A stretch of DNA of 64,000 nucleotides from Brevundimonas vitisensis (GTDB lineage Bacteria; Pseudomonadota; Alphaproteobacteria; Caulobacterales; Caulobacteraceae). The position numbers and the translations under genes were made by a program. The stretch lies in contig NZ_CP067977.1 in the NCBI RefSeq assembly GCF_016656965.1, positions 1,240,001 to 1,304,000 on the forward strand, read 5' to 3'. Under the pieces are notes generated by a model. That model was not told the origin of the DNA, ran no database searches, and saw nothing but the letters and a program-made list of their open reading frames with translations. Below, in pieces: positions 1,282 through 24,220 of this stretch; the stretch's first letter is position 1; each line of letters opens with the position of its first letter.

Positions 1282-1740
1282 TTAAGCGAAGTTGGCTTTG
1301 CCGATGGAGACCCAGACGGCCTCGGAGGTGACGTCCTCGATCACCCCGGCCCGGGCACGCGTGGCGTTAGCCGAGGTCTTGGCGACGGTCTGGTCGTCGA
1401 CGATGAAGGCGGACTTGCCGATGTCGGCCCGGGTGATCAGGTCGCCAGCAGAGGAGTTGGCGAAGCCGAAGCAATCGCGCTCCACCTCGACAACCACATC
1501 GCCGTTGGCCGCGCCCCCGGTGACCGTCTCCAGGGCGATACCGACGCTGACGTGAGTCAGGGCGTCAGCCGCCTTGGCGGCGTCGTCTGCGCCTTGGCCA
1601 GCGCGGGCCGGCCGGGCGAAGCCGTCGTCCAGCATGACCAGGGCCGACTGCAGGATGGTGACGCCGGCCGTGACCGGAACCGGGAAGCGGCGGACACCCG
1701 CCAGCTTGACGATCTTGCGCGGTGCGCTGAGGGCCGTCAT
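1282..1740 (-). CDS. Head decoration/stabilisation protein (DUF2190-like)
   Basis: A 152-residue alanine/valine-rich protein with the small beta-rich composition of DUF2190/capsid-stabilising proteins: GVRRFPVPVTAGVTILQSALVMLDDG near the start and a central GIALETVTGGAANGD loop. Its position between protease/scaffold and major head protein matches decoration proteins in many Mu-like and siphophage genomes. The start overlaps the stop of the protease gene by four bases. The assignment rests on composition and context rather than on a diagnostic motif. Confidence 0.6.
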   Translation of the reverse strand: MTALSAPRKIVKLAGVRRFPVPVTAGVTILQSALVMLDDGFARPARAGQGADDAAKAADALTHVSVGIALETVTGGAANGDVVVEVERDCFGFANSSAGDLITRADIGKSAFIVDDQTVAKTSANATRARAGVIEDVTSEAVWVSIGKANFA

Positions 1741-2288
1741 TGGGCCACCTCCGATTCACGGGACTTCAGGAAGTCGGCCTCGGAGATGCCCATGGCCGCG
1801 CAGACCTGCCGGTCCTCGTCGGTCAGGACCGCCTTGTCGGCATCGACCTTGGCGGCGGCCTTGCCGGCACCGCCCGACAGGACGGCGGGCTGGCCCTGGA
1901 CGAAGGCGGTGAACTGGGCCTCGTCCTGGTTAAACAGGGCCTTGCCCCAGTCCTTCAGGGCGGGCGTCAGCTTGCCGGCGGCGACCGCATCATCCACGGC
2001 GGCGCTGGCGCGCTCCTCGTTGATGACCTTCAGCTTGTCGGTCACCTCGGTCAGGGCGGCGATCGGCACGAACTTCTGGGGATCAGGGGCTCCACCAGTC
2101 ACGGCGGCCGTGGCGGCGGCGGTGATGGCCTCGCCGGTGGCATTGACGCCCAGACCCAGGGCGGTCGCGGTGGCCGCGACAGCCTCCTGCGCGGCCTTGC
2201 GATCGGAAATCAGCGACGCGATCGAGGCGCAGGCCTCGGCCTCGGTCGCATCGTCCTTCAGCCCGAGGGCCGTGAGGATGGTCTTCAT
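1737..2288 (-). CDS. Probable nested scaffold protein (gpZ equivalent)
   Basis: In Mu the scaffold Z is made from an internal start inside the protease gene I. Here Met176 of the protease (codon at 2286-2288) opens a 183-residue in-frame product beginning MKTILTALGLKDDA, just after the protease domain ends. An AGGGAC element lies about 13 bases upstream, a weak and rather distant ribosome site. The product would be a helical, charged scaffold. The inference rests on position and the Mu precedent; the start is not proven. Confidence 0.45.
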   Translation of the reverse strand: MKTILTALGLKDDATEAEACASIASLISDRKAAQEAVAATATALGLGVNATGEAITAAATAAVTGGAPDPQKFVPIAALTEVTDKLKVINEERASAAVDDAVAAGKLTPALKDWGKALFNQDEAQFTAFVQGQPAVLSGGAGKAAAKVDADKAVLTDEDRQVCAAMGISEADFLKSRESEVAQ

Positions 2289-2813
2289 GGATGGCGATGT
2301 CCCTGGATGGAGGTCGACCGACGCCGCAGCGGCGATCTCCCGAATGGCCGGCTGGTTGACCAGTCCGACGTTGAAGAAACGGGTGAGGCGGCCGGACGCC
2401 TTGTCCGAGCCGAAATAGGGCGACAGGTAGCGGTAGGTCCTGGCTTTCAGCTTGGCGGCGGCGGCCTCGGTCCACTCGACGGCCGCCCAGATGCCATCGG
2501 CCCTCACCGTCAGCTTGGAGACGTCGATCCACGCGGCGGCTTCGGCCGTGCCGCCCTTGCCTTCACCGACAGCGAAGACGGCCTGGTGGTCGTAATCGAC
2601 CATCATATCGGTGGGGGAATGCCGGGCCTGGGTGGCGGCGATCACTTCACGGGCATGGGCCTCGTCGGCCAGCGTCCAGGGCCCACGACCATCGCGGGCC
2701 TGGACGGTCCCCATGGGAAAGAGCTGGATCTCGCGCGGCGGCTCGCCATCGGCACCCAGAACGATCGGGGTTGCGGCGGACGCGTGATTGAGGATTTCGG
2801 CGGCGGTGTTCAC
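1737..2813 (-). CDS. Mu gpI-like prohead protease with C-terminal scaffold
   Basis: A 358-residue protein of the Mu I protease family, which matures the prohead by cleaving scaffold and head proteins. The protease part (about residues 1-170) has the family segments MVDYDHQAVF, TYRYLSPYF and FFNVGLVNQPAI. The C-terminal half is helical and alanine-rich, like a scaffold. The start is a GTG at 2813. It lies 37 bases from a dyad that also precedes the lysis operon, so this gene should head a late transcript (equivalent of Mu PI). An internal in-frame start is listed separately. Confidence 0.88.
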   Translation of the reverse strand: MNTAAEILNHASAATPIVLGADGEPPREIQLFPMGTVQARDGRGPWTLADEAHAREVIAATQARHSPTDMMVDYDHQAVFAVGEGKGGTAEAAAWIDVSKLTVRADGIWAAVEWTEAAAAKLKARTYRYLSPYFGSDKASGRLTRFFNVGLVNQPAIREIAAAASVDLHPGTSPSMKTILTALGLKDDATEAEACASIASLISDRKAAQEAVAATATALGLGVNATGEAITAAATAAVTGGAPDPQKFVPIAALTEVTDKLKVINEERASAAVDDAVAAGKLTPALKDWGKALFNQDEAQFTAFVQGQPAVLSGGAGKAAAKVDADKAVLTDEDRQVCAAMGISEADFLKSRESEVAQ

Positions 2814-13724: not shown

Positions 13725-13742
13725 GGGTGCAACCTTGCACCC
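13725..13742 (-). promoter_or_regulatory. Candidate Mor/C-dependent late operator (Plys equivalent)
   Basis: The same GGTGCAACCTTGCACC dyad as at 2851-2866, here at 13726-13741, 37 bases before the endolysin GTG and 13 bases past the stop of the Mor/C gene. The arms extend one more G/C pair here. In Mu, C activates Plys from a dyad at the same place. Confidence 0.72.
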
Positions 13743-13754
13743 TTAGCCCGGTCG

Positions 13755-14132
13755 TCAGTCGGTAGAAAACAGGCCCAGCTGATCGGAATCGTCGTCCGCG
13801 CCGCGTTCGGCCGCCTTGACGTAGAACACGGTCCGGCGGCTGGCGCCAACCCTGCGACAGATGTTCGGTATCGACTCGCCCGCTGACAACAGCTGAACGA
13901 TCATCGCGCGGCGGCCCAGGCTGATGGGAACGTCGATTGTCTTGGTACCGAACGCCGCGACCAGCTGCGCCGCCGCCTGCGGTCCGACGCACTGGGTGAT
14001 CGGGTGATGGGCCCCCAGAAAGCGCGGGACATAGATCCGCGAACCGGCATAGGCGGCGGACAAGGCGGCGGCTCCATCGTCGCCGACCAGCTGGACCACC
14101 CTTTCCCAGTCGCTGAAGTGCCGGGCGTTCAC
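13755..14132 (-). CDS. Mor/C-family middle/late transcription activator
   Basis: A 125-residue protein. The N-terminal half is the Mor dimerisation region (SDWERVVQLVGDDGAAALSAAYAGSRIYVP). The C-terminal half carries the helix-turn-helix (RAMIVQLLSAGESIPNICRRVGASRRTVF). Mu Mor (129 aa) activates the middle promoter and C (140 aa) the four late promoters. Only one family member is visible here, so it may do both jobs. The start is GTG at 14130-14132. It is the last gene of the early/middle block and sits directly before the lysis operator. Confidence 0.9.
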   Translation of the reverse strand: MNARHFSDWERVVQLVGDDGAAALSAAYAGSRIYVPRFLGAHHPITQCVGPQAAAQLVAAFGTKTIDVPISLGRRAMIVQLLSAGESIPNICRRVGASRRTVFYVKAAERGADDDSDQLGLFSTD

Positions 14133-14346: not shown

Positions 14347-14985
14347 TCACCGAGCGTTCTCGGGCAGGCAGCGGATCTCTTCGCCCTGCCGGCGGATCAG
14401 CGTGTCGAGGTATTCATGCGGGAAGGCGTGGCCGACAAACCCGGCCCGACCGTAGAGCCGGGTCTCCTGGGCGCGGATCAGGTTGACCATGAGAACCCGG
14501 ACCGCGTCCGCCCCGGGCAACAGGCCCGTCACGTCCTGCGACCAGCCGGCCCGCTCGGCCATGGCCTTCAGCGCCTCGATCAGCTTGTAGGTTTGTCCCT
14601 GATCGGCCCACTGCAGACGCTCGACCTTCAGCTGGCGGCGGGCAAAGGCCTCCAGCGCCGTCTCGGACGGGTCGCGGATTTCGCCCAGGTTCCACAGCGA
14701 CAGCCACAGGGCCCGCGCCTTCTTCGCCGCTGGATGGTCGGCGGGGGCGATCGGTCGGCCTTTCTGGCTTTGCGGCTTTCTGGCTTTCCGGCCGCCGGCC
14801 ACCACCTTCGGCGTCCAGCCCTTCGCCTTGAACTCGTCCAGCACCCGGCCCAGCTCGGCGTCATTGCACTCGGCCGAGGACGTTTGGCCGGTCAGCCGCA
14901 GCAGGATCGCGCGATAGTCATCCTCGGCCAAGCCCAGCTCTTTGCGGGCAATCTGCACCTTCACGACGGCGGGGCGGCGGGTCAT
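14347..14985 (-). CDS. gemA: GemA (Mu gp16-like) regulatory protein
   Basis: A 212-residue DUF1018 protein. The N-terminus has the family signature IARKELGLAEDDYRAILLRLTG. A lysine/arginine-rich linker (about 65-85) and a C-terminal helical part follow (ARALWLSLWNLGEIRDPSETAL). Mu GemA alters host gene expression and DNA topology during middle infection. It overlaps the 72-residue gene upstream by four bases. Confidence 0.9.
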   Translation of the reverse strand: MTRRPAVVKVQIARKELGLAEDDYRAILLRLTGQTSSAECNDAELGRVLDEFKAKGWTPKVVAGGRKARKPQSQKGRPIAPADHPAAKKARALWLSLWNLGEIRDPSETALEAFARRQLKVERLQWADQGQTYKLIEALKAMAERAGWSQDVTGLLPGADAVRVLMVNLIRAQETRLYGRAGFVGHAFPHEYLDTLIRRQGEEIRCLPENAR

Positions 14986-15200
14986 TTCAGCGACTCGATC
15001 TGGCCGGCGACCAGGCCGATCTCGACCAGCTGGGCGGTCGTCAACGACCGGATGGTCTCGCCTTCGTCACGCTGATTTACGGCCTCGCTGACGATCGCCC
15101 AGCTATACTGGCCGTTCGTCTGCAGGAAGCCCTTCAGGTTGGTCCGGCGGGCGTACTGGTCGGTGCCCAGATAGAATTCGACCTTGGCGGGGCGGATCAT
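14982..15200 (-). CDS. Small hypothetical phage protein (72 aa)
   Basis: A 72-residue protein of mixed alpha/beta composition (KVEFYLGTDQYARRTNLKGFLQ). It overlaps both neighbours by four bases, so it is very probably translated. No recognised family. Confidence 0.65.
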   Translation of the reverse strand: MIRPAKVEFYLGTDQYARRTNLKGFLQTNGQYSWAIVSEAVNQRDEGETIRSLTTAQLVEIGLVAGQIESLK

Positions 15201-15484
15201 GTCGCCCCTCCTTTGATGGTCAGCACGGGCAGCGACAGCTCTTCGGAAACACTGTCCCAGCCGCCAGAATGGGCGTCCCGGCGCAGGCGAAGCCGGGCCA
15301 TCATGACCTGGCCATCGGCGTCCGTGAACCGGGCCGACAGGGTCATCTGCTGCGCTCCCGGGGAGGCGCGGACATGGCGAGGCGGCGTCCAGTCGCCGAT
15401 CGCGCCCAGGCGAAAGGCGTCGGCCAGGGCCGGGGACCAGACCAGCCAGTGGGCCCTGGGCCGCGAAGACCGTTTGCGGCTCAT
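15197..15484 (-). CDS. Small hypothetical phage protein (95 aa)
   Basis: A 95-residue basic protein starting MSRKRSSRPRAHW. The start at 15482-15484 is set by overlap with the DnaA-like gene's stop. The C-terminal half looks beta-rich (MTLSARFTDADGQVMMARLRLRRD). No family recognised. Confidence 0.6.
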   Translation of the reverse strand: MSRKRSSRPRAHWLVWSPALADAFRLGAIGDWTPPRHVRASPGAQQMTLSARFTDADGQVMMARLRLRRDAHSGGWDSVSEELSLPVLTIKGGAT

Positions 15485-15873
15485 GCCCTGGGCCTTTCGA
15501 CCACAGCCAGGCACTGCTGCATCCAGGCGAGGCGGAAGGCGGTCGTTTCGATGGCCCGTCTCAGGGCCGGCGCGGCGTCCCGGCCGAACAGGTCCAGCAG
15601 TTCCTGTGTCAGGCTCGCGTCGCCGGTACCGGACGCCAGACGCTTCTGCGCCTCGGCGACGGCGTGCCGCACGGTCGAATGATCGCGACCGCCGAACAGG
15701 GCACCGATCGTCTTGTAGCTGAGGTCGGAGCGGTAGCGCCGGATGACCAGCATGGCCCGGGCGCGGGCCCAGACCAGCGGCAGTTTGCGGCTCGGGCCGG
15801 TCAGGTCGTCAACGCTCAGACCGACCTGGCTGGCGGCGGCGTCAAGCACACGTCGGGCGATCACGCGGGTCAT
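15481..15873 (-). CDS. DnaA domain IV-like DNA-binding protein
   Basis: A 130-residue protein whose first ~80 residues match the C-terminal DNA-binding domain of DnaA: VDDLTGPSRKLPLVWARARAMLVIRRY, then SYKTIGALFGGRDHSTVRHAV, the DnaA-box recognition signature (RDHSTV). There is no AAA+ domain, so it cannot act as an initiator alone; it could compete for DnaA boxes or recruit factors. It lies directly before a gene with a GcrA-type motif, overlapping it by four bases. Confidence 0.85.
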   Translation of the reverse strand: MTRVIARRVLDAAASQVGLSVDDLTGPSRKLPLVWARARAMLVIRRYRSDLSYKTIGALFGGRDHSTVRHAVAEAQKRLASGTGDASLTQELLDLFGRDAAPALRRAIETTAFRLAWMQQCLAVVERPRA

Positions 15874-16565
15874 GCGGCGTCAGACTCCAGATCGCGGGTG
15901 CCATAGGGGCGGGCCACCCGGCCGAGGGTCCGCACGACCTTGGGCGTCGGCTTCAGGCCGGCGGCCTTGCAGTGATCCGCGCAATAGCCTCGGCCGGTGA
16001 CGACCGGCTCGCCGCAGTTGCGATAACCCGCCTCGCCCGGCGTCCCGATCGGCCAAACGCAGGGGGCGACCTGGGCGGGGGCCTGGGCGGCGATCTGGCC
16101 GGCGGAGGGGGACGGCGCTCCGGACGCATGCCGACGCCTCAGCGCCTCGCGGATGGCATCGGAATGATCGATCTTGCGGTCAGTGACCGGCGGCACATCG
16201 GGCGTCAGCGCCTTCAGCGCCGCCGCATAAGCGCGGAAATAGTCCGACCCCGCTCCCCGCATGGCTGCCCTATAGGTGGATGTCATGATGCCGATCGTCG
16301 CCAACACCCGCTCTGATGGCGCTCCCGTGGCGAAGATCAGCGCCTGGACGGCTGGGGCCAGGCCGCGACGTGGCTTGCCTGACTTCGCCAGAAGAGCCTT
16401 GATCGGGTGGTCGCCATAGGTCGCGGTCGAGGCCACGATCGCGGCGGCAATGGTGTCGGCGGTCAGCATCGTCTTCATCCGGCTGTCCTTTCGCGGGTGA
16501 TCGGGGACGGGCTGGGCGAACCCAGCCTGTGCCGGAGCATCCGCAAGGGCCTTGGGGGCGACCAT
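15870..16565 (-). CDS. Phage protein with GcrA-type sigma-interaction motif
   Basis: A 231-residue protein. Residues ~169-204 carry CVWPIGTPGEAGYRNCGEP then GRGYCADHC, which is the pattern of the C-terminal domain of GcrA, the Caulobacter cell-cycle regulator that binds sigma-70. The N-terminal ~130 residues do not look like the GcrA HTH; they are helical (DYFRAYAAALKALTP) and may bind DNA or another partner. Two starts are possible: ATG at 16565, overlapping the upstream stop and preceded by GAGGGG, or ATG at 16478, preceded by AAAGGA. The second gives a 202-residue form. Confidence 0.75.
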   Translation of the reverse strand: MVAPKALADAPAQAGFAQPVPDHPRKDSRMKTMLTADTIAAAIVASTATYGDHPIKALLAKSGKPRRGLAPAVQALIFATGAPSERVLATIGIMTSTYRAAMRGAGSDYFRAYAAALKALTPDVPPVTDRKIDHSDAIREALRRRHASGAPSPSAGQIAAQAPAQVAPCVWPIGTPGEAGYRNCGEPVVTGRGYCADHCKAAGLKPTPKVVRTLGRVARPYGTRDLESDAA

Positions 16566-16801
16566 CAGGCCGCCCCTCGCAGGTCCGGGGTTTCGGTCCT
16601 GGCGGCGGTCATCGCGGCCACCGCCTCCTGGATCACGCGCCATTCGTTATCGGTCAGGGTCATCCGCTCGGGCGACACGCGGAATCGGGCGACGACCTCG
16701 CCTGCCAGCTCGGCCTCAAAGGGGGCCAGGACATGCGCCCAGCCCCCCAGGAGGGTCGCGGTACGGATGATCGCCAGTGACTGTTCGTAGGTCAGCGCCA
16801 T
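16565..16801 (-). CDS. Small hypothetical phage protein (78 aa)
   Basis: A 78-residue helical protein (MALTYEQSLAIIRTATLLGG, then RMTLTDNEWRVIQEAVAAM). The start at 16799-16801 is set by its overlap with the upstream membrane gene. No family recognised. Confidence 0.6.
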   Translation of the reverse strand: MALTYEQSLAIIRTATLLGGWAHVLAPFEAELAGEVVARFRVSPERMTLTDNEWRVIQEAVAAMTAARTETPDLRGAA

Positions 16802-16983
16802 CACCAGGCCCCGTCCAGCCAGGCTTGATATTCTTCGTCCGCATCCATCGGGTGGGCCTTGCGGTCCTTGCGCCGGTTGAGCAACCGGGCGACCCCGACG
16901 ACTAAAGCCACCACCAAGACCAGCGACAACCACCAGCCGAGGCCGGACAGGAAGCCCTGCAGGATCAGGTCCAGCCACATCAT
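16801..16983 (-). CDS. Small single-pass membrane protein (60 aa)
   Basis: A 60-residue protein with one strong membrane helix (GWWLSLVLVVALVVGVARLL) followed by RRKDRK and an acidic tail, suggesting the C-terminus is cytoplasmic. The ATG at 16981-16983 overlaps the DUF3164 stop. Function unknown. Confidence 0.6.
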   Translation of the reverse strand: MMWLDLILQGFLSGLGWWLSLVLVVALVVGVARLLNRRKDRKAHPMDADEEYQAWLDGAW

Positions 16984-17651
16984 CAGGCGTCCGCCACGTC
17001 GATCGTGACGGCCTCCCAGCGGGCGCGGGCATCGGCGCGGCGATAGAAGCGGACATGCTCCTTGGTGCCGTCGACGCGGATCGAGTCCTTGATCGCCCTC
17101 ATGGCCGACTGCCACCGCTCGTCCGGGATCTCGTAGCGCAGCAGGCGGAACAGCTCGGCCCGGTTGACCAGGCCAGACTGGTCGGTGCGGAAGGCATGGT
17201 GGACGATGCCGCGCAGCTCGGGGCCGCTGTCCTCGGTCAGTTCGGTCAGATACTCGTCGACCAGGGCCTTTGCCGCCTGCAGCTCGGGGCCGAAGGTCAG
17301 CCGCTCCTGGACCTGGACCTTAACCTGCAGGGTGCCGTCAAACGAGGTCAGGGTCACATTGCCCTTCTCGCCGCCGATCTTGGTCGAATACTCCTGGGCC
17401 AGCACCGCCATCAGGTCGGCGACGTCATTCAGGGTGTGCTGTTTGAACCGGGCGACCTGGGCGTTCAGCGGCACCGCGAAGCCCATGATCTTGCGGACCT
17501 GTTCGTCGACCAGTTGATCGGTCGGCTTGACGATCTCGGCGGGGATCAGGGCCCCTTTGGCATCGGTCCAGTAGATCTGGCCGTTCAGTTCGACACGGCC
17601 GCCCGGGACGGGAGCCGCCTCGATCGGCGTGGTAGTGGTCTGTTCGATCAT
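16983..17651 (-). CDS. DUF3164 family phage protein
   Basis: A 222-residue protein of the DUF3164 family common in the early region of Mu-like phages. Recognisable parts are YWTDAKGALIPAEIVKPTDQLVDE, a central FDGTLQVKVQVQERLTFGPELQAAK, and a C-terminal IRVDGTKEHVRFYRR. Role not established; its position suggests early replication or regulation. Confidence 0.88.
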   Translation of the reverse strand: MIEQTTTTPIEAAPVPGGRVELNGQIYWTDAKGALIPAEIVKPTDQLVDEQVRKIMGFAVPLNAQVARFKQHTLNDVADLMAVLAQEYSTKIGGEKGNVTLTSFDGTLQVKVQVQERLTFGPELQAAKALVDEYLTELTEDSGPELRGIVHHAFRTDQSGLVNRAELFRLLRYEIPDERWQSAMRAIKDSIRVDGTKEHVRFYRRADARARWEAVTIDVADA

Positions 17652-17820: not shown

Positions 17821-18230
17821 GACCGCCCCCCGTCGATGACCACCAGGGCCCCGCAGACACGGGCCCGGGTGACGCCCTGGGGCAGCCGGGCCAGATCCGC
17901 GCCGGTCATCAGCCCGTCGATGCGCGAGGCCAGGGCCTTGATCGAGGCGCGTCGCTGATCGGCGCTGTCGCTCAGCGCCTGACCCAGGGTGGTCAGGCCC
18001 AGACCCGTCAGCTCGAAACCGCCGCCAGCCTCGATGTCGGTCTCGCGATCGGCCCGCAGACTGGCGCGAAGGGCGATCAGGTTGCGCCGGGCCCGGCTCG
18101 CAAAGCCACGGAAGTCCTCCTCGGACAGGGTCTCGGCACCGGCTCGCCGGACGATGGTCCCAAGGTCGGCCAGGACCGCCTCGATGCGATCCAGATCGTC
18201 AGTGTGTTCGGCCATCGGATCGCTCCTCAT
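17817..18230 (-). CDS. Hypothetical phage protein (137 aa)
   Basis: A 137-residue mostly helical protein (DDLDRIEAVLADLGTIVRRAG, RGFASRARRNLIALRASLRADRE). The ATG at 18230 overlaps the transposition gene B stop; a second ATG five codons later is also possible. Lies directly after A-B in the early operon. No family recognised. Confidence 0.65.
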   Translation of the reverse strand: MRSDPMAEHTDDLDRIEAVLADLGTIVRRAGAETLSEEDFRGFASRARRNLIALRASLRADRETDIEAGGGFELTGLGLTTLGQALSDSADQRRASIKALASRIDGLMTGADLARLPQGVTRARVCGALVVIDGGRS

Positions 18231-19201
18231 GTTGCCGCCAGCAGCGGGGCGACCCGCTGTTCGTAGGTTTCGCGAAGGTGACCGAGGACGCGCGGCTCTT
18301 CGGTCGCGGTGGCCCCCAGCGTGGCCATCTCCAGGGTCATGGTGATCGAGCGCAGACCGCCCGGCAGCGCGCCGATCTCGCGCAGGAAGGCGATCTCGTC
18401 CGCGCGGGTGACGCCCCAGGCGCGCAGGATGATGTCGATGTCCGTCTGGGTCGGGCGCTTGTAGTGCTGAGGCCAGCTGACCCGGCTGTGCAGCTGGGCG
18501 AAGGCGGGCGTGCGGGCACCGCGACTGACCCGGCGCATGATCTCGGTATTGCCGGCCAGAACCAGGCCGCATTTCAGCGCGTCGTGGATGGCGCGCGCCA
18601 TCTCGACCGCGTCATCCTCAAGATGCTGGGCCTCATCGATGATGATCAGCGGGTTCAGGCCCTGCAGGCGCTCCAGAAGCAGCGTCTTCAAGGTGTAGGC
18701 GCGACCGCCGAGCCGCGAGACATTGCCCGCCGCGTTCAGCATCGCCAGCAGCAGGGATGTCACGCCGGTCGTCGACTTGTCGGCCGTGACCATAAATGCG
18801 TTCGGCGTGTCCTGCAGGTACTGCTCGAAGGTGGCGGTCTTGCCGACGCCGGGGTCGCCGGTGATGACCGAGATCTTGCCCCGGTGCGCCCACTGCAGCT
18901 GGCGGGTCATCGCCTTGGCGGTGGGTGTCCAGGTGAAGTCCGGAACCAGCGGCGCCTGCAGCGCCATTTGGGCGGCGGCATCCTCGGCCAGGAAGAACCG
19001 GTTGACCTTGAAGGCCAGGTCCCGGTTGTCCGCACCGTATTTGTTGCTGGCGAACAGCTGGATGGTGACGCGATTGACCCCGACCTTGTCGCCGACCTGT
19101 GGCCAGGTCAGGCCTTTCTCGGCCTTGTAGGCGGACAGGCGGTCGCGCAGCTCCTGCATCTCCTCCTCTGTGAAGGTCTCTTTGCCGCGTGTGACGTTCA
19201 T
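18227..19201 (-). CDS. Mu B-like transposition ATPase
   Basis: A 324-residue protein: N-terminal HTH (RDRLSAYKAEKGLTWPQVGDKVGVNRVTI) and an AAA+ ATPase with Walker A GDPGVGKT and Walker B LIIIDEAQH. Mu B binds target DNA as a filament, delivers it to the A transpososome and gives target immunity. The ATG at 19199-19201 is chosen; an extension to 19246 has no homology. It follows transposase A after a 78-base gap. Confidence 0.93.
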   Translation of the reverse strand: MNVTRGKETFTEEEMQELRDRLSAYKAEKGLTWPQVGDKVGVNRVTIQLFASNKYGADNRDLAFKVNRFFLAEDAAAQMALQAPLVPDFTWTPTAKAMTRQLQWAHRGKISVITGDPGVGKTATFEQYLQDTPNAFMVTADKSTTGVTSLLLAMLNAAGNVSRLGGRAYTLKTLLLERLQGLNPLIIIDEAQHLEDDAVEMARAIHDALKCGLVLAGNTEIMRRVSRGARTPAFAQLHSRVSWPQHYKRPTQTDIDIILRAWGVTRADEIAFLREIGALPGGLRSITMTLEMATLGATATEEPRVLGHLRETYEQRVAPLLAAT

Positions 19202-19279
19202 GCTAGGCGTTCCTTGCTGACTACAGGGCCTTGCAGGCCCAACCACGGGCGCGAGGGGTTCCAGCCCTCGCGCCCGAAC

Positions 19280-21349
19280 TCATTCGTCGACCAGTCGAAG
19301 GGCCGGCGGACGCGGCGCGACCGGGTTCAACCGGTCCATCGCGGCGGCCCACCGTTCCGGGGCGGTCAGGGTTTCGGGGGATGCCACCGCATCGGGCGTG
19401 AACGCCTCCTGGGTGACGGGTTTGAGGGCGGCGGCCATCTGTCCGCGTGCTCTGACGGGACGAACCACCTTGGGGCTGACCGGCATGGGCCCCTTCGGGT
19501 CGCTGGCCAGCAGGGCCGCCAGCTTCTCGCCCTGCATCAGTCCCAGCAGCTCGGTCTGGCGCTTGGTGTTGCGGCGCAGCTCGCCTTCCTGGCGGGCGCG
19601 GCGGCCGGCGGCGGCGACATCCAGGAAACCGGTCCGTTCCTGCAGCGGCGCGGAGGCCAGATAGGCGTTGTTCAGGCTGTAGACATGGACTTCGGAATGC
19701 AGGTCGTCGGGGTCGAACCGGACGATCACCCGCTGGCCGGCCAGGGCGCTCATGGCGGGCGACCAGTAGATGTTCTGATAGGCCTTGATGGAGCCGTCCT
19801 TGCGGTCGCACCGCACGACATCGGAAGCCAGCAGGGCCATCCGCAGATGCTCCGGCTTGGCCTTGCCGACGGAGGCGGTGGCATAGGAGGCTTCGAACAC
19901 CTGGTCGAAGCTGTGCTGGCCCCGGCCCATCTCGGTGTTGCGGCCCAGCTGCGCGTTGTGGGCTTCGATACCCAGGGCGACGACCCGCTTGAACTCCTCC
20001 AGGTCCACGGCCTTCTGGCCATAGTTCTCCGGCTTGTTCAGCACCGTGTTGCCGGTATAGGCCCCGGCGAATTCTGGCCGGTTGGCGACGCTGTTGCACA
20101 GGTCCCGCCAGGCGCGCTCAATGGGCTTTGAGGAGCCCCTGAACGGCAGCGCCCAGTGGATGGCGATGCCCAGCGAGGTCAGCAGCCCGGTCGGCTCCTC
20201 GGGCTTGATCTTGAACCGGAAGCGGCTCTTTGCCCCGCCGGTGATCATCTTCGACGCAAAGGCCCGGCCGTTGTCCATCAGGCAGGCCTTGGGGATGCCG
20301 AAGTCGCGGAACAGGTCAGCGAAGGCCAACCGGGTCAGCACGGCCGACTCGGTCTCGCCGATGCGCCACGCCAGGATCTTGCGGCTGTAGACGTCCTGGA
20401 TGCCGACCATCATGGGGCGACCGATCGAGCCGTCGGGCCAGCGCACGAAGACGTCCCACTTGTGGCCGTCGATGTTTACCAGCTCCATGGCCGAGAGATC
20501 GGCAACGGTCCGTTGCTGGGCGGGGATGACGGCGCGCAGGGCGTCGGCCCCATAGCGCGACGAGATGATCACCGGGTGCGGCACTTCCCGCTCCAGCTTG
20601 CGCTTCAGGGTCTTCATGTGGGGCAGGACGATCCCGCGCGGCGCGCAGTATTCGCTCTGGACCCGCCGGTAGACCGACGACAGGGTCGGGGGGCCTTCCT
20701 TGCGCAGATAGTCCGACAGGAAGACCGCCCATGCCCCGGCATCGACCTCGGCGGTCTCCCCTCCGCCTTTGCGTTGGGGGGCCAGGCGCGGCAGGCGATC
20801 GTGAGGTTCCGCCCCGGCGATAGCCGAAAAATAGGTCCAGATCGTCGACGCCCCGACCTTCGATCGGGCGGCGACGGTGGCGATCGCGGCCGACCGGTTC
20901 AGCCCGGCCGCTTCCAGGGCCTCGACCTGGTCGATGATCGCCAGCTTGGCCCGGGCATCGGCCTTCACGGCCTCGGTCTGCTGGTCGAACCAGGACCACA
21001 GCTGGCTGACCGGCGCGTCATTGGCGGCCTCGCCCTGGGCCGCCGACTGCGCCGCGTCGCCCACCAGGCCCTTGCGGACCAGGGCCGTCGAGGCTGCCGG
21101 CGGCAGGACGGCGATGTGATATTCGACCCCGCCGCCCCGACCGCGGTGCGGGCGGCACAGCGGCATCCCCGTGGCGTCGGTGCGCAGGGCCCAGCGTTCG
21201 GCCTGGGCCAGCTCATTGATCTTGCGCTTGGCCGACGAAAGGCCCGGCAGCTTCAGATCGGCCAGCTCGGCCGCCGTGAACCACTGCTTTCCTCCAGCAG
21301 GCAAGGCAGTGGTCGGAGAAATGATCGAAAGGGTATGAAGCACCGTCAT
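19280..21349 (-). CDS. Mu A-like DDE transposase
   Basis: A 689-residue transposase that performs replicative transposition. An N-terminal Mu-type HTH region (about 20-80, FTAAELADLKLPGLSS), a second DNA-binding part (about 150-175), then an RNase H-like core with catalytic Asp294 (NIDGHKWDVF), Asp359 (LMDNGRAF) and Glu411 (KPIERAWRDL). The C-terminal part should contact B. All three catalytic residues are present, so the element may be active. Confidence 0.95.
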   Translation of the reverse strand: MTVLHTLSIISPTTALPAGGKQWFTAAELADLKLPGLSSAKRKINELAQAERWALRTDATGMPLCRPHRGRGGGVEYHIAVLPPAASTALVRKGLVGDAAQSAAQGEAANDAPVSQLWSWFDQQTEAVKADARAKLAIIDQVEALEAAGLNRSAAIATVAARSKVGASTIWTYFSAIAGAEPHDRLPRLAPQRKGGGETAEVDAGAWAVFLSDYLRKEGPPTLSSVYRRVQSEYCAPRGIVLPHMKTLKRKLEREVPHPVIISSRYGADALRAVIPAQQRTVADLSAMELVNIDGHKWDVFVRWPDGSIGRPMMVGIQDVYSRKILAWRIGETESAVLTRLAFADLFRDFGIPKACLMDNGRAFASKMITGGAKSRFRFKIKPEEPTGLLTSLGIAIHWALPFRGSSKPIERAWRDLCNSVANRPEFAGAYTGNTVLNKPENYGQKAVDLEEFKRVVALGIEAHNAQLGRNTEMGRGQHSFDQVFEASYATASVGKAKPEHLRMALLASDVVRCDRKDGSIKAYQNIYWSPAMSALAGQRVIVRFDPDDLHSEVHVYSLNNAYLASAPLQERTGFLDVAAAGRRARQEGELRRNTKRQTELLGLMQGEKLAALLASDPKGPMPVSPKVVRPVRARGQMAAALKPVTQEAFTPDAVASPETLTAPERWAAAMDRLNPVAPRPPALRLVDE

Positions 21350-23209: not shown

Positions 23210-23500
23210 CTAAAAGCCCCGCGTCGTTAGACGGTGCGCGTCCCGCTTTTGAGGGGTATCATCCCGTTTTGTGGATTCGATACCGCGCGGATGATCGGCT
23301 TTTCTATGCGGGAACAGTTTGGATATCGGCCTGCCCAAGGCACCCGCGATGGCGGTCTCGACGCGAAGCGATTTGCGGCCACGCAGGACGTCGCGGGTCG
23401 AGTCGGCGGGCAAGCCTTGGCGCTCTTCAAATGCACGCAGCGTCCCGAATTTGATCCTCAGGTCCGCCTTTATCCGTTCTTTGTGCGCAGGCTTGGTCAA
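23210..23500 (-). CDS. Ner/Nlp-like early regulator
   Basis: A 96-residue DNA-binding protein. The first ~65 residues follow the Mu Ner pattern: ERIKADLRIKFGTLRAFEERQGLPADSTRDVLRG, then AIAGALGRPISKLFPHR in the place of the Ner ALG-P-IWPSRY. In Mu, Ner turns down both repressor and early promoters. Upstream in-frame is a stop, so the start is TTG at 23498-23500, with GGGGAG eight bases before it. Transcribed divergently from the repressor. Confidence 0.78.
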   Translation of the reverse strand: MTKPAHKERIKADLRIKFGTLRAFEERQGLPADSTRDVLRGRKSLRVETAIAGALGRPISKLFPHRKADHPRGIESTKRDDTPQKRDAHRLTTRGF

Positions 23501-23509
23501 ACGTCATTC

Positions 23510-23561
23510 TCCCCTGGGACGCGAATCCCATTTCCGGGACGCTAATAGCCAATTATGGGAC
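23510..23561. promoter_or_regulatory. Repressor/Ner operator region
   Basis: Three GGGAC boxes lie at 23516-23520, 23536-23540 and 23557-23561, spaced 20 and 21 bases (two helical turns). The first two continue as GGGACGC-AAT. An ATCCC at 23525 makes a partial dyad with the first. The last box overlaps the repressor ATG, and no ribosome site precedes it, so a leaderless repressor mRNA is possible. A GAATC (GANTC) methylation site lies at 23523-23527. Confidence 0.55.
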
Positions 23562-24220
23562 AGTCAACGGTTAACGATCATCAGGCATGGGAGCCTACGT
23601 CCGGTTTTGGCGCACGGCTCAAAATCGCTATGGGTTCAATGCAGCAGGCACATCTGGCCAAGAGAGCCGATATCTCGACCTCGACGCTGTCGCGGATCCT
23701 GCAAGGTGCCGATCCGGGATTGGACGCGTCTATCCGGCTTGCGCGAGAAGTTGGGGCCGATCTGATCTGGCTGGCGACTGGGCGCGGCTCACCGAATGCG
23801 GCCGCCAGCGGCTATCTGAGCGTGCCCATCTATGACGTCCGCCTGGCCGCTGGCGTCGCGGCCTTCGCCGATGCGGCCGAGGTGATCGGGGAAATGCCTT
23901 TCGATCGTGGCCTTTTGCGCGACATTGGCCGCACCACCGCCGATGGGCTGGCGGTCTTCATAGCCGAAGGCGATTCGATGCATCCCAAGATTGCCGACGG
24001 GGCTCGCGTCCTGACCGATCTGAAGGATGTTCGACTGCGGGAGGGGGTCTTCGCCTTCCGCACGGGCGACGAGCTGCGCATCAAGCGCCTGCGCCGCCGC
24101 CTCGACGGCATCGAGATCATCTCCGACAACGAGAACTACCCGCCCGAGCTGGTCACCGGTGACGCAGCCGACGACCTAGCCATCATCGGCAAGGTCCTTT
24201 GGACAGGAACGGTCGTATGA
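23555..24220 (+). CDS. Phage repressor, XRE HTH plus S24 peptidase
   Basis: A 221-residue immunity repressor. An N-terminal HTH (about 18-70, QAHLAKRADISTSTLSRILQG) is followed by a LexA/CI-like S24 domain with Ser141 (EGDSMHP) and Lys177 (RIKRL). An Ala-Gly pair at 99-100 (RLAAGVAAF) is a plausible autocleavage site. This suggests SOS-type induction, unlike the Mu c repressor, which is not an S24 protein. The ATG at 23555 is the only good start, since an in-frame stop lies just upstream. It is followed by two overlapping small genes. Confidence 0.92.
   Translation: MGQSTVNDHQAWEPTSGFGARLKIAMGSMQQAHLAKRADISTSTLSRILQGADPGLDASIRLAREVGADLIWLATGRGSPNAAASGYLSVPIYDVRLAAGVAAFADAAEVIGEMPFDRGLLRDIGRTTADGLAVFIAEGDSMHPKIADGARVLTDLKDVRLREGVFAFRTGDELRIKRLRRRLDGIEIISDNENYPPELVTGDAADDLAIIGKVLWTGTVV

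Follow-up and report, generated by a model that had tools for sequence, protein, structure and literature searches.

Why should a Mu-like prophage carry a part of DnaA and a part of GcrA in two overlapping genes? The question is raised by a 64,000-nucleotide stretch of the Brevundimonas vitisensis genome (NZ_CP067977.1, positions 1,240,001 to 1,304,000), which is referred to below as the window. A preliminary description had pointed to two adjacent, overlapping genes, one for a DNA-binding domain of DnaA without its ATPase and one for the C-terminal motif of GcrA, and this much holds: both open reading frames (ORFs) exist, and they share the four base pairs ATGA (15870-15873, minus strand) at a place between the genes for a DUF3164 protein and GemA. 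The upstream product, P0002, is a hybrid in which a GcrA-type sigma-interacting domain (SID) follows a head with the modelled fold of DnaA domain IV, and the downstream product, P0001, is a free-standing DnaA domain IV. Heads are exchanged among the relatives of P0002, and the pairing of GcrA with DnaA domain IV (DnaA-C) recurs in other Mu-like phages.

P0001 (130 aa) matches PF08299 over residues 8-72 with 60.5 bits against a cut-off of 31.5 (E 1.6e-16), and solved DnaA DNA-binding domains match it with E values of 8.4e-6 to 3.6e-4 (three best rows). As a member of DnaA domain IV it carries the DNA-reading motif GGRDHSTV. The AAA+ ATPase is absent: PF08299 is the only family found, and TIGR00362 reaches 47.3 bits against 343.9, at positions 350-422. 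Alignment to E. coli domain IV (1j1v) showed that R399, D433 and H434 are kept and that T435 is replaced by serine; these four we take to be the base-reading residues of E. coli DnaA. The C-terminal extension of P0001 is also present in relatives from the same gene slot, and recognition motifs vary among the DnaA-C relatives. Twenty phage records match P0001 at E<=1.

For P0002, the gene start is probably the ATG at 16478 rather than 16565, because 17/17 other members of its sequence family begin near the motif that starts MKTMLTAD in P0002. The C-terminus is a GcrA-type SID, as judged from sequence and from the modelled fold together. PF07750 matches residues 139-173 only (E 9.3e-6; 26.5 bits, just below the cut-off of 26.9), and the match is restricted to profile positions 110-144; the NCBIfam GcrA model NF050816 gives 20.1 bits against 280, and the GcrA chains 5yix and 7ye1 match with E values of 0.0025 and 0.017. 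An AlphaFold2 model built from 18 sequences had a mean predicted local distance difference test (pLDDT) score of 82 and a predicted template modelling (pTM) score of 0.51. Its SID was matched to the GcrA SID of 5yix with a Foldseek probability of 0.99 and a root-mean-square deviation of 1.0 Å over 36 columns, the E value being 0.82 for a domain this short, so the expectation that the cysteine motif would fold as in GcrA is borne out in the model. Moreover, 18/18 family members agree with chromosomal GcrA in residues C, W, P, C, C and H of the SID (30 reference rows, which still included one spurious ORF of locus L035). To assemble the family, about 5.8 billion proteins were searched twice, the first search yielding 2 proteins and the second 18 including those 2; the Pfam GcrA label is found on only some of its members. 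Scanning viral contigs with P0002 alone confirmed nothing, and the 4 phage records that matched P0002 did so over no more than 26% of it. A scan of genome contigs with a further query (A2) returned 3 loci, which were read as ordinary GcrA-type proteins and rejected.

According to the preliminary description, P0002 kept only the interaction module, without the GcrA helix-turn-helix (HTH). That N-terminal HTH is indeed absent, but the protein is not bare: in two models, the best structural matches of its head are DnaA domain IV, so that in these models the head has a DnaA-domain-IV-like fold, and a helical, DNA-binding-type domain stands where the GcrA HTH would be. The GGRDHTTV signature is missing from this head, and sequence fails to prove its kinship with DnaA domain IV. 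A head profile scored 20.9 against DnaA domain IV, above 150/150 column shuffles, with MuB at 20.7, Mor-like at 19.8 and ParB at 18.4; single head sequences were mostly not above shuffles, and against GcrA HTHs, a set that held a few spurious ORF rows, 18 columns were aligned with an E value of 0.081. As these profile comparisons do not support a clear DnaA sequence homologue, the likeness is kept at the level of the fold. Conservation of the head across the 18 aligned family members, together with the model, led us to reject P0002 as a bare SID protein lacking a DNA-binding part. The same conservation bears on the idea of a sigma decoy that would occupy sigma70 region 2 and block host GcrA with no promoter activation. 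The kept SID and the absent GcrA HTH would suit such a protein, but it has no need for a folded, DNA-binding-type head conserved in 18 members, and we regard it as quite improbable.

How the head came to stand before a GcrA-type tail is suggested by the relatives. Six IMG/VR contigs (L043-L048), found via the family profile, carry the SID gene in an equivalent Mu-like setting, to the extent that each contig covers it. The head is DnaA-like in L043, L044 and L047, and a true GcrA HTH in L048 (PF07750 106.9 bits) and in L045 and L046, which carry the same SID protein (65.9 bits in L045). From the DH..AI..RR linker on, the L045 protein shares 53-55% identity with the DnaA-headed proteins P0010 and P0012 (97-104 aa aligned). 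Because a protein with a GcrA HTH thus shares linker and tail with DnaA-headed ones, the sequences describe one gene slot with two interchangeable heads, in which the DnaA-like head has replaced the GcrA HTH. The SID gene of L043 is directly followed by tail-like genes, with no GemA, and locus L077 has a head without a SID. In L077 6329-7873, that SID-less protein lies beside a gene reading as two GcrA-type HTHs, with no significant Pfam match. By reading, a GcrA HTH at L153 6998-7633 runs into a stretch like the small gene u15197 of the window with no SID between, a possible fusion or frameshift.

Recurrence of the pair was followed with a scan anchored on GemA and independent of SID and DnaA, which gave 40 IMG/VR contigs. 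Together with L043-L048 these formed 38 clusters, and 35 groups were left once L043 and L047, not returned by the GemA scan, had been set aside and L045 had been joined manually to L046/L134, which have the same SID gene. Upstream of GemA, DnaA-C was present in 20 groups, GcrA or parts of it in 11, DnaA domain I (DnaA-N) in 8 and none of these in 8. L153 counts among the 11 with an HTH only, its GcrA-like protein having no SID, and its DnaA-C, which precedes MuA, is not counted in the slot. On the downstream side, none of these profiles has a match within 6 kb of GemA in the cluster representatives, 33 of the 37 GemA-bearing ones having at least 4 kb there. GcrA is directly followed by DnaA-C in 5/35 groups (L139, L143, L145, L162, L166), and a DnaA-N gene precedes GcrA in three of them (L139, L162, L166), so the pair, whose lack of conservation would have refuted the preliminary description, recurs among phages reached through GemA alone. 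Pfam GcrA is above its cut-off in 5/5 of these loci and DnaA-C in 3/5 (below it are L139 with 29.2 and L145 with 24.7 bits, against 31.5); the DnaA-N gene is above cut-off only in L139, reaching 15.0 bits in L162, whereas that of L166 has no Pfam match and was seen with a custom profile only. All five carry the GcrA HTH, the L143 contig starting inside the gene, and a DnaA-headed SID beside DnaA-C was found in the window only.

Two genome surveys extended this picture. Across the order, GemA occurs in 13/398 genomes at 15 places, two of which (G286, G108) were left out. The window and the 12 other regions gave DnaA-C in 6/13, DnaA-N in 2, full GcrA in 1 (L078), a DnaA-headed SID in 1 (the window, also under DnaA-C), a head alone in 1 and none in 3. 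In L078 the GcrA gene (PF07750 91.9 bits) overlaps another gene, which matches DnaA-C weakly (11.2 bits, equalled or bettered by 1/200 shuffles) and has no Pfam match. Across the class, GemA occurs in 18/385 genomes, host included; in 20 of the 21 places outside the host (G694 was left out), DnaA-C was found in 6 (two from one genome, where it follows GemA), weak DnaA-N, likewise behind GemA, in 3, and GcrA or a SID on the coding strand in 0/20. Local-profile matches outside the slot at chance level were dropped (L079 3050-3310; L123 7525-7710, other strand; L044 1517-1831). Synechococcus phage Ssp-JY42 (L002) and the IMG/VR contig L051, not found through Mu-like genes, each hold a GcrA homologue and DnaA-C on one contig.

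DnaA pieces of the other kind raise the possibility that they serve phage replication, domain I recruiting helicase and domain IV acting as a tether, with the SID gene a mere neighbour. Early genes ending in DnaA domain I (PF11638) lie at L043 8493-9107, L044 8518-9024, L045 887-1465, L076 4968-5462, L081 5767-6261 and L153 6499-6993, and PF11638 is above cut-off in L043, L044, L076, L081 and L153, also in L139, but not in L045. Against this, the stretch from 16565 to 15870 in the window phage lacks a DnaA-N gene and the phage has no DnaA-box cluster, and we consider replication helpers unlikely. The domain I stands mostly behind an FWxxYP-type stretch, and such proteins are candidate helicase recruiters.

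We favour, with a probability of about 0.5, the reading of P0002 and P0001 as early phage regulators, P0002 as a sigma70 cofactor whose DNA specificity is its own and P0001 as a DnaA-box-type binder. A review describes GcrA as binding sigma region 2 and raising open-complex formation at methylated promoters (PMC7403470); by analogy, the head of P0002 should select the promoters to which the protein recruits sigma70 polymerase. The C-terminal domain would dock on region 2 of the host main sigma factor, as GcrA does, and the DnaA-domain-IV-shaped head, in place of the HTH that reads methyl-GANTC, would direct RNA polymerase to different, phage-chosen promoters. P0001, whose joint production with P0002 is probable because of the ATGA overlap, would bind DnaA-box-type sites, and without an ATPase it could occupy or block sites and not melt an origin. 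The analysis shows what the domains are, that P0002 is built as a hybrid, that heads are exchanged and that the pair recurs; sigma70 docking, DNA binding, promoter activation and site blocking are what we infer from this, and the phage might plausibly also take over the timing of host replication. DnaA domain I, DnaA domain IV, GcrA and hybrids would then take one another's place in the early regulator slot of alphaproteobacterial Mu-like phages, to which both genes belong.

Where such proteins would bind separates two further explanations. The DnaA box TTATNCACA, with up to 1 mismatch, occurs once in 36.3 kb (the 24.3-kb phage part and 12 kb to its left), and the window holds no DnaA-box clusters, with 5 sites at up to 1 mismatch against 7.55 in shuffles. 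GANTC gives no signal: the 24.3-kb phage part has 31 sites and the remaining 39.7 kb has 58, in each case about half the number in a base shuffle. If P0001 has the specificity of DnaA, as its residues suggest, the near absence of DnaA boxes from the phage makes targets on the host more likely. This points towards a host S-phase takeover, in which P0001 competes with DnaA at oriC and at DnaA-controlled promoters, P0002 mimics or displaces GcrA on sigma70, domain I in relatives recruits helicase, and the resulting cell state favours replicative transposition. The joint recurrence of GcrA and DnaA pieces in the order described above speaks for it; many Mu-like phages with only one module, and the varied recognition motifs of the DnaA-C relatives, speak against it, and we hold it to be doubtful. 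Equally tentative is its extension to a cassette of DnaA-N, GcrA, DnaA-C and then GemA, where ATPase-less DnaA ends would bracket the sigma70 cofactor, quieting oriC firing and diverting both helicase and sigma70 polymerase towards the phage as it transposes. Domain I would there be the helicase-recruiting end and domain IV the origin-binding end, and the cofactor of the window has a DnaA-shaped head.

Those varied motifs fit drifted, phage-private operators instead of host sites. Exchanged heads and changing motifs are what would be expected of operators that change with each phage, and GemA and the Mor/C-type gene come shortly after the slot, so that DnaA-C and SID proteins might merely tune early and middle promoters of the phage with no host cell-cycle role. 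No phage site was found for either protein in the DnaA-box and palindrome searches, however, and this explanation leaves the recurrence of DnaA and GcrA parts in particular unaccounted for; we consider it possible, though not probable.

The palindrome in question is the inverted repeat GGGTGCAAGGTTGCACCC (13725-13742), which follows the Mor/C-position gene and looks like a late-promoter operator. A 7-4-7 repeat of this type follows that gene in 10/12 loci tested (window, L044, L045, L046, L047, L048, L081, L083, L084, L087; not L077 or L078), and by eye a TAGCTT-like -10 element lies 23-24 nt beyond it in the window, L044, L045, L047 and L048. The 16-bp core has a second exact copy at 2851-2866, before ORF 1737-2813 (minus strand), and with two mismatches allowed its matches are at chance level. 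P0002 is unlikely to bind this palindrome, as the same type occurs with different heads. Separately, the gap between the repressor and a Ner-like gene (23440-23640) shows, by eye, repeated GGGA-type half sites resembling an early operator, and L043 and L044 are similar.

The prophage fills the first 24 kb of the window, with genes mostly on the minus strand, and it is Mu-like in that MuA, MuB, GemA, Gp27 and DUF3164 are all detected (Table 1); a ParB-like protein is also encoded. The placement of the pair next to GemA needs a qualification: it is close, in a Mu-like early region, but not adjacent, as u15197 and then u14982 separate P0001 from GemA. No Pfam family matches u15197 at E<=1. For the gene in Mor/C position Pfam yields generic HTH names only; the label comes from where the gene lies and from the annotation of a relative in L132 as "middle operon regulator". 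The host genome is one contig of 2.98 Mb that includes the window, and encodes its own full DnaA and full GcrA (242 bits against C. crescentus GcrA). Elsewhere on the chromosome lie a further lone DnaA-C-like gene (L009, G000:C1:1168524-1168715; 133 aa, 32.4 or 31.3 bits against 31.5) and a second Mu-like prophage (L076, G000:C1:2081862-2082365) with GemA and a DnaA-N gene, where the 16 kb examined hold no SID or DnaA-C match.

Table 1. Features of the prophage in the window, in order of decreasing position
Feature	Position	Strand	Match or basis
S24/CI-type repressor	23555-24220	+	
MuA-like transposase	19280-21349	-	DDE_2, E 1.7e-51
MuB-like protein	18227-19204	-	Phage-MuB_C, E 5.9e-13
DUF3164 protein	16983-17651	-	PF11363, E 2.8e-68
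u16565, small gene, upstream edge of regulator slot	16565-16804	-	
P0002, hybrid of DnaA-domain-IV-like head, linker and GcrA-type SID, 202 aa	15870-16478	-	
Head of P0002, residues 1-91, six helices	16206-16478	-	structure models
Linker motif (I/V)DH..AI..A..RR, about residues 101-119	16122-16178	-	
GcrA-type SID, residues 136-175, C-x-W-P, C, C-x2-H	15954-16073	-	
P0001, free-standing DnaA domain IV (residues 8-72) and C-terminal extension	15481-15873	-	
u15197, small gene, function not assigned, frequent slot neighbour in relatives	15197-15514	-	
u14982, small gene, relative present in L044	14982-15200	-	
GemA	14347-14985	-	PF06252, E 4.7e-34
HTH gene in Mor/C position	13755-14132	-	HTH_23

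If the favoured reading of the pair as early regulators is true, P0002 would combine, in one phage transcription factor, the unusual sigma region 2 contact of GcrA with a swapped DNA-reading head, and the sigma-docking part would be a portable activation tail. The DnaA-N, GcrA, DnaA-C order would offer a compact natural parts set for studying the coupling of a transposing phage to the alphaproteobacterial replication cycle. Within the accessible text of the open-licence literature, no report was found of the hybrid head, of its exchange with the GcrA HTH or of a split DnaA in the DnaA-N, GcrA, DnaA-C order; most subscription journals lay outside this search, which is no proof of being unpublished. 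Phage GcrA homologues are described for phiCbK-like phages (PMC3556154), Agrobacterium phage Atu_ph08 (PMC6630229), cyanophage Pam5 (PMC9382816) and Sinorhizobium prophages (PMC12429752); a CtrA study mentions the phiCbK GcrA and reports that GcrA and DnaA sites show no asymmetry in phages (PMC9437464). Host GcrA matches 31 phage records at E<=1e-3.

Compared with these systems, P0002 shares with GcrA (PF07750; C. crescentus, 5yix and 7ye1) the C-terminal SID and its C-x-W-P, C and C-x2-H residues, whereas the N-terminal HTH of GcrA is replaced by the DnaA-domain-IV-like head. The phage homologues phiCbK gp222 and Atu_ph08 gp5 have the SID and the phage location in common with P0002, but those of phiCbK type match GcrA over most of its length. 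DnaA domain IV (PF08299; 1j1v, 3pvp) is what P0001 consists of, without the ATPase or domains I-III, and the P0002 head has its modelled fold without GGRDHTTV. Stand-alone DnaA-C proteins of Rhizobium phage RHph_N28_2 and Synechococcus phage Ssp-JY42 are, like P0001, lone domains IV in phage gene clusters, with a full GcrA lying some 3.7 kb from it in Ssp-JY42; the gene in the window differs in overlapping that of a DnaA-headed SID in a Mu-like early region. Finally, Mor and C of Mu are middle and late activators that act with host sigma70 polymerase. P0002, in its proposed role, would resemble them as an early or middle phage regulator working on that polymerase, and since the Mor/C position in the window phage is taken by a separate gene, it would be an additional factor with a GcrA-type contact.
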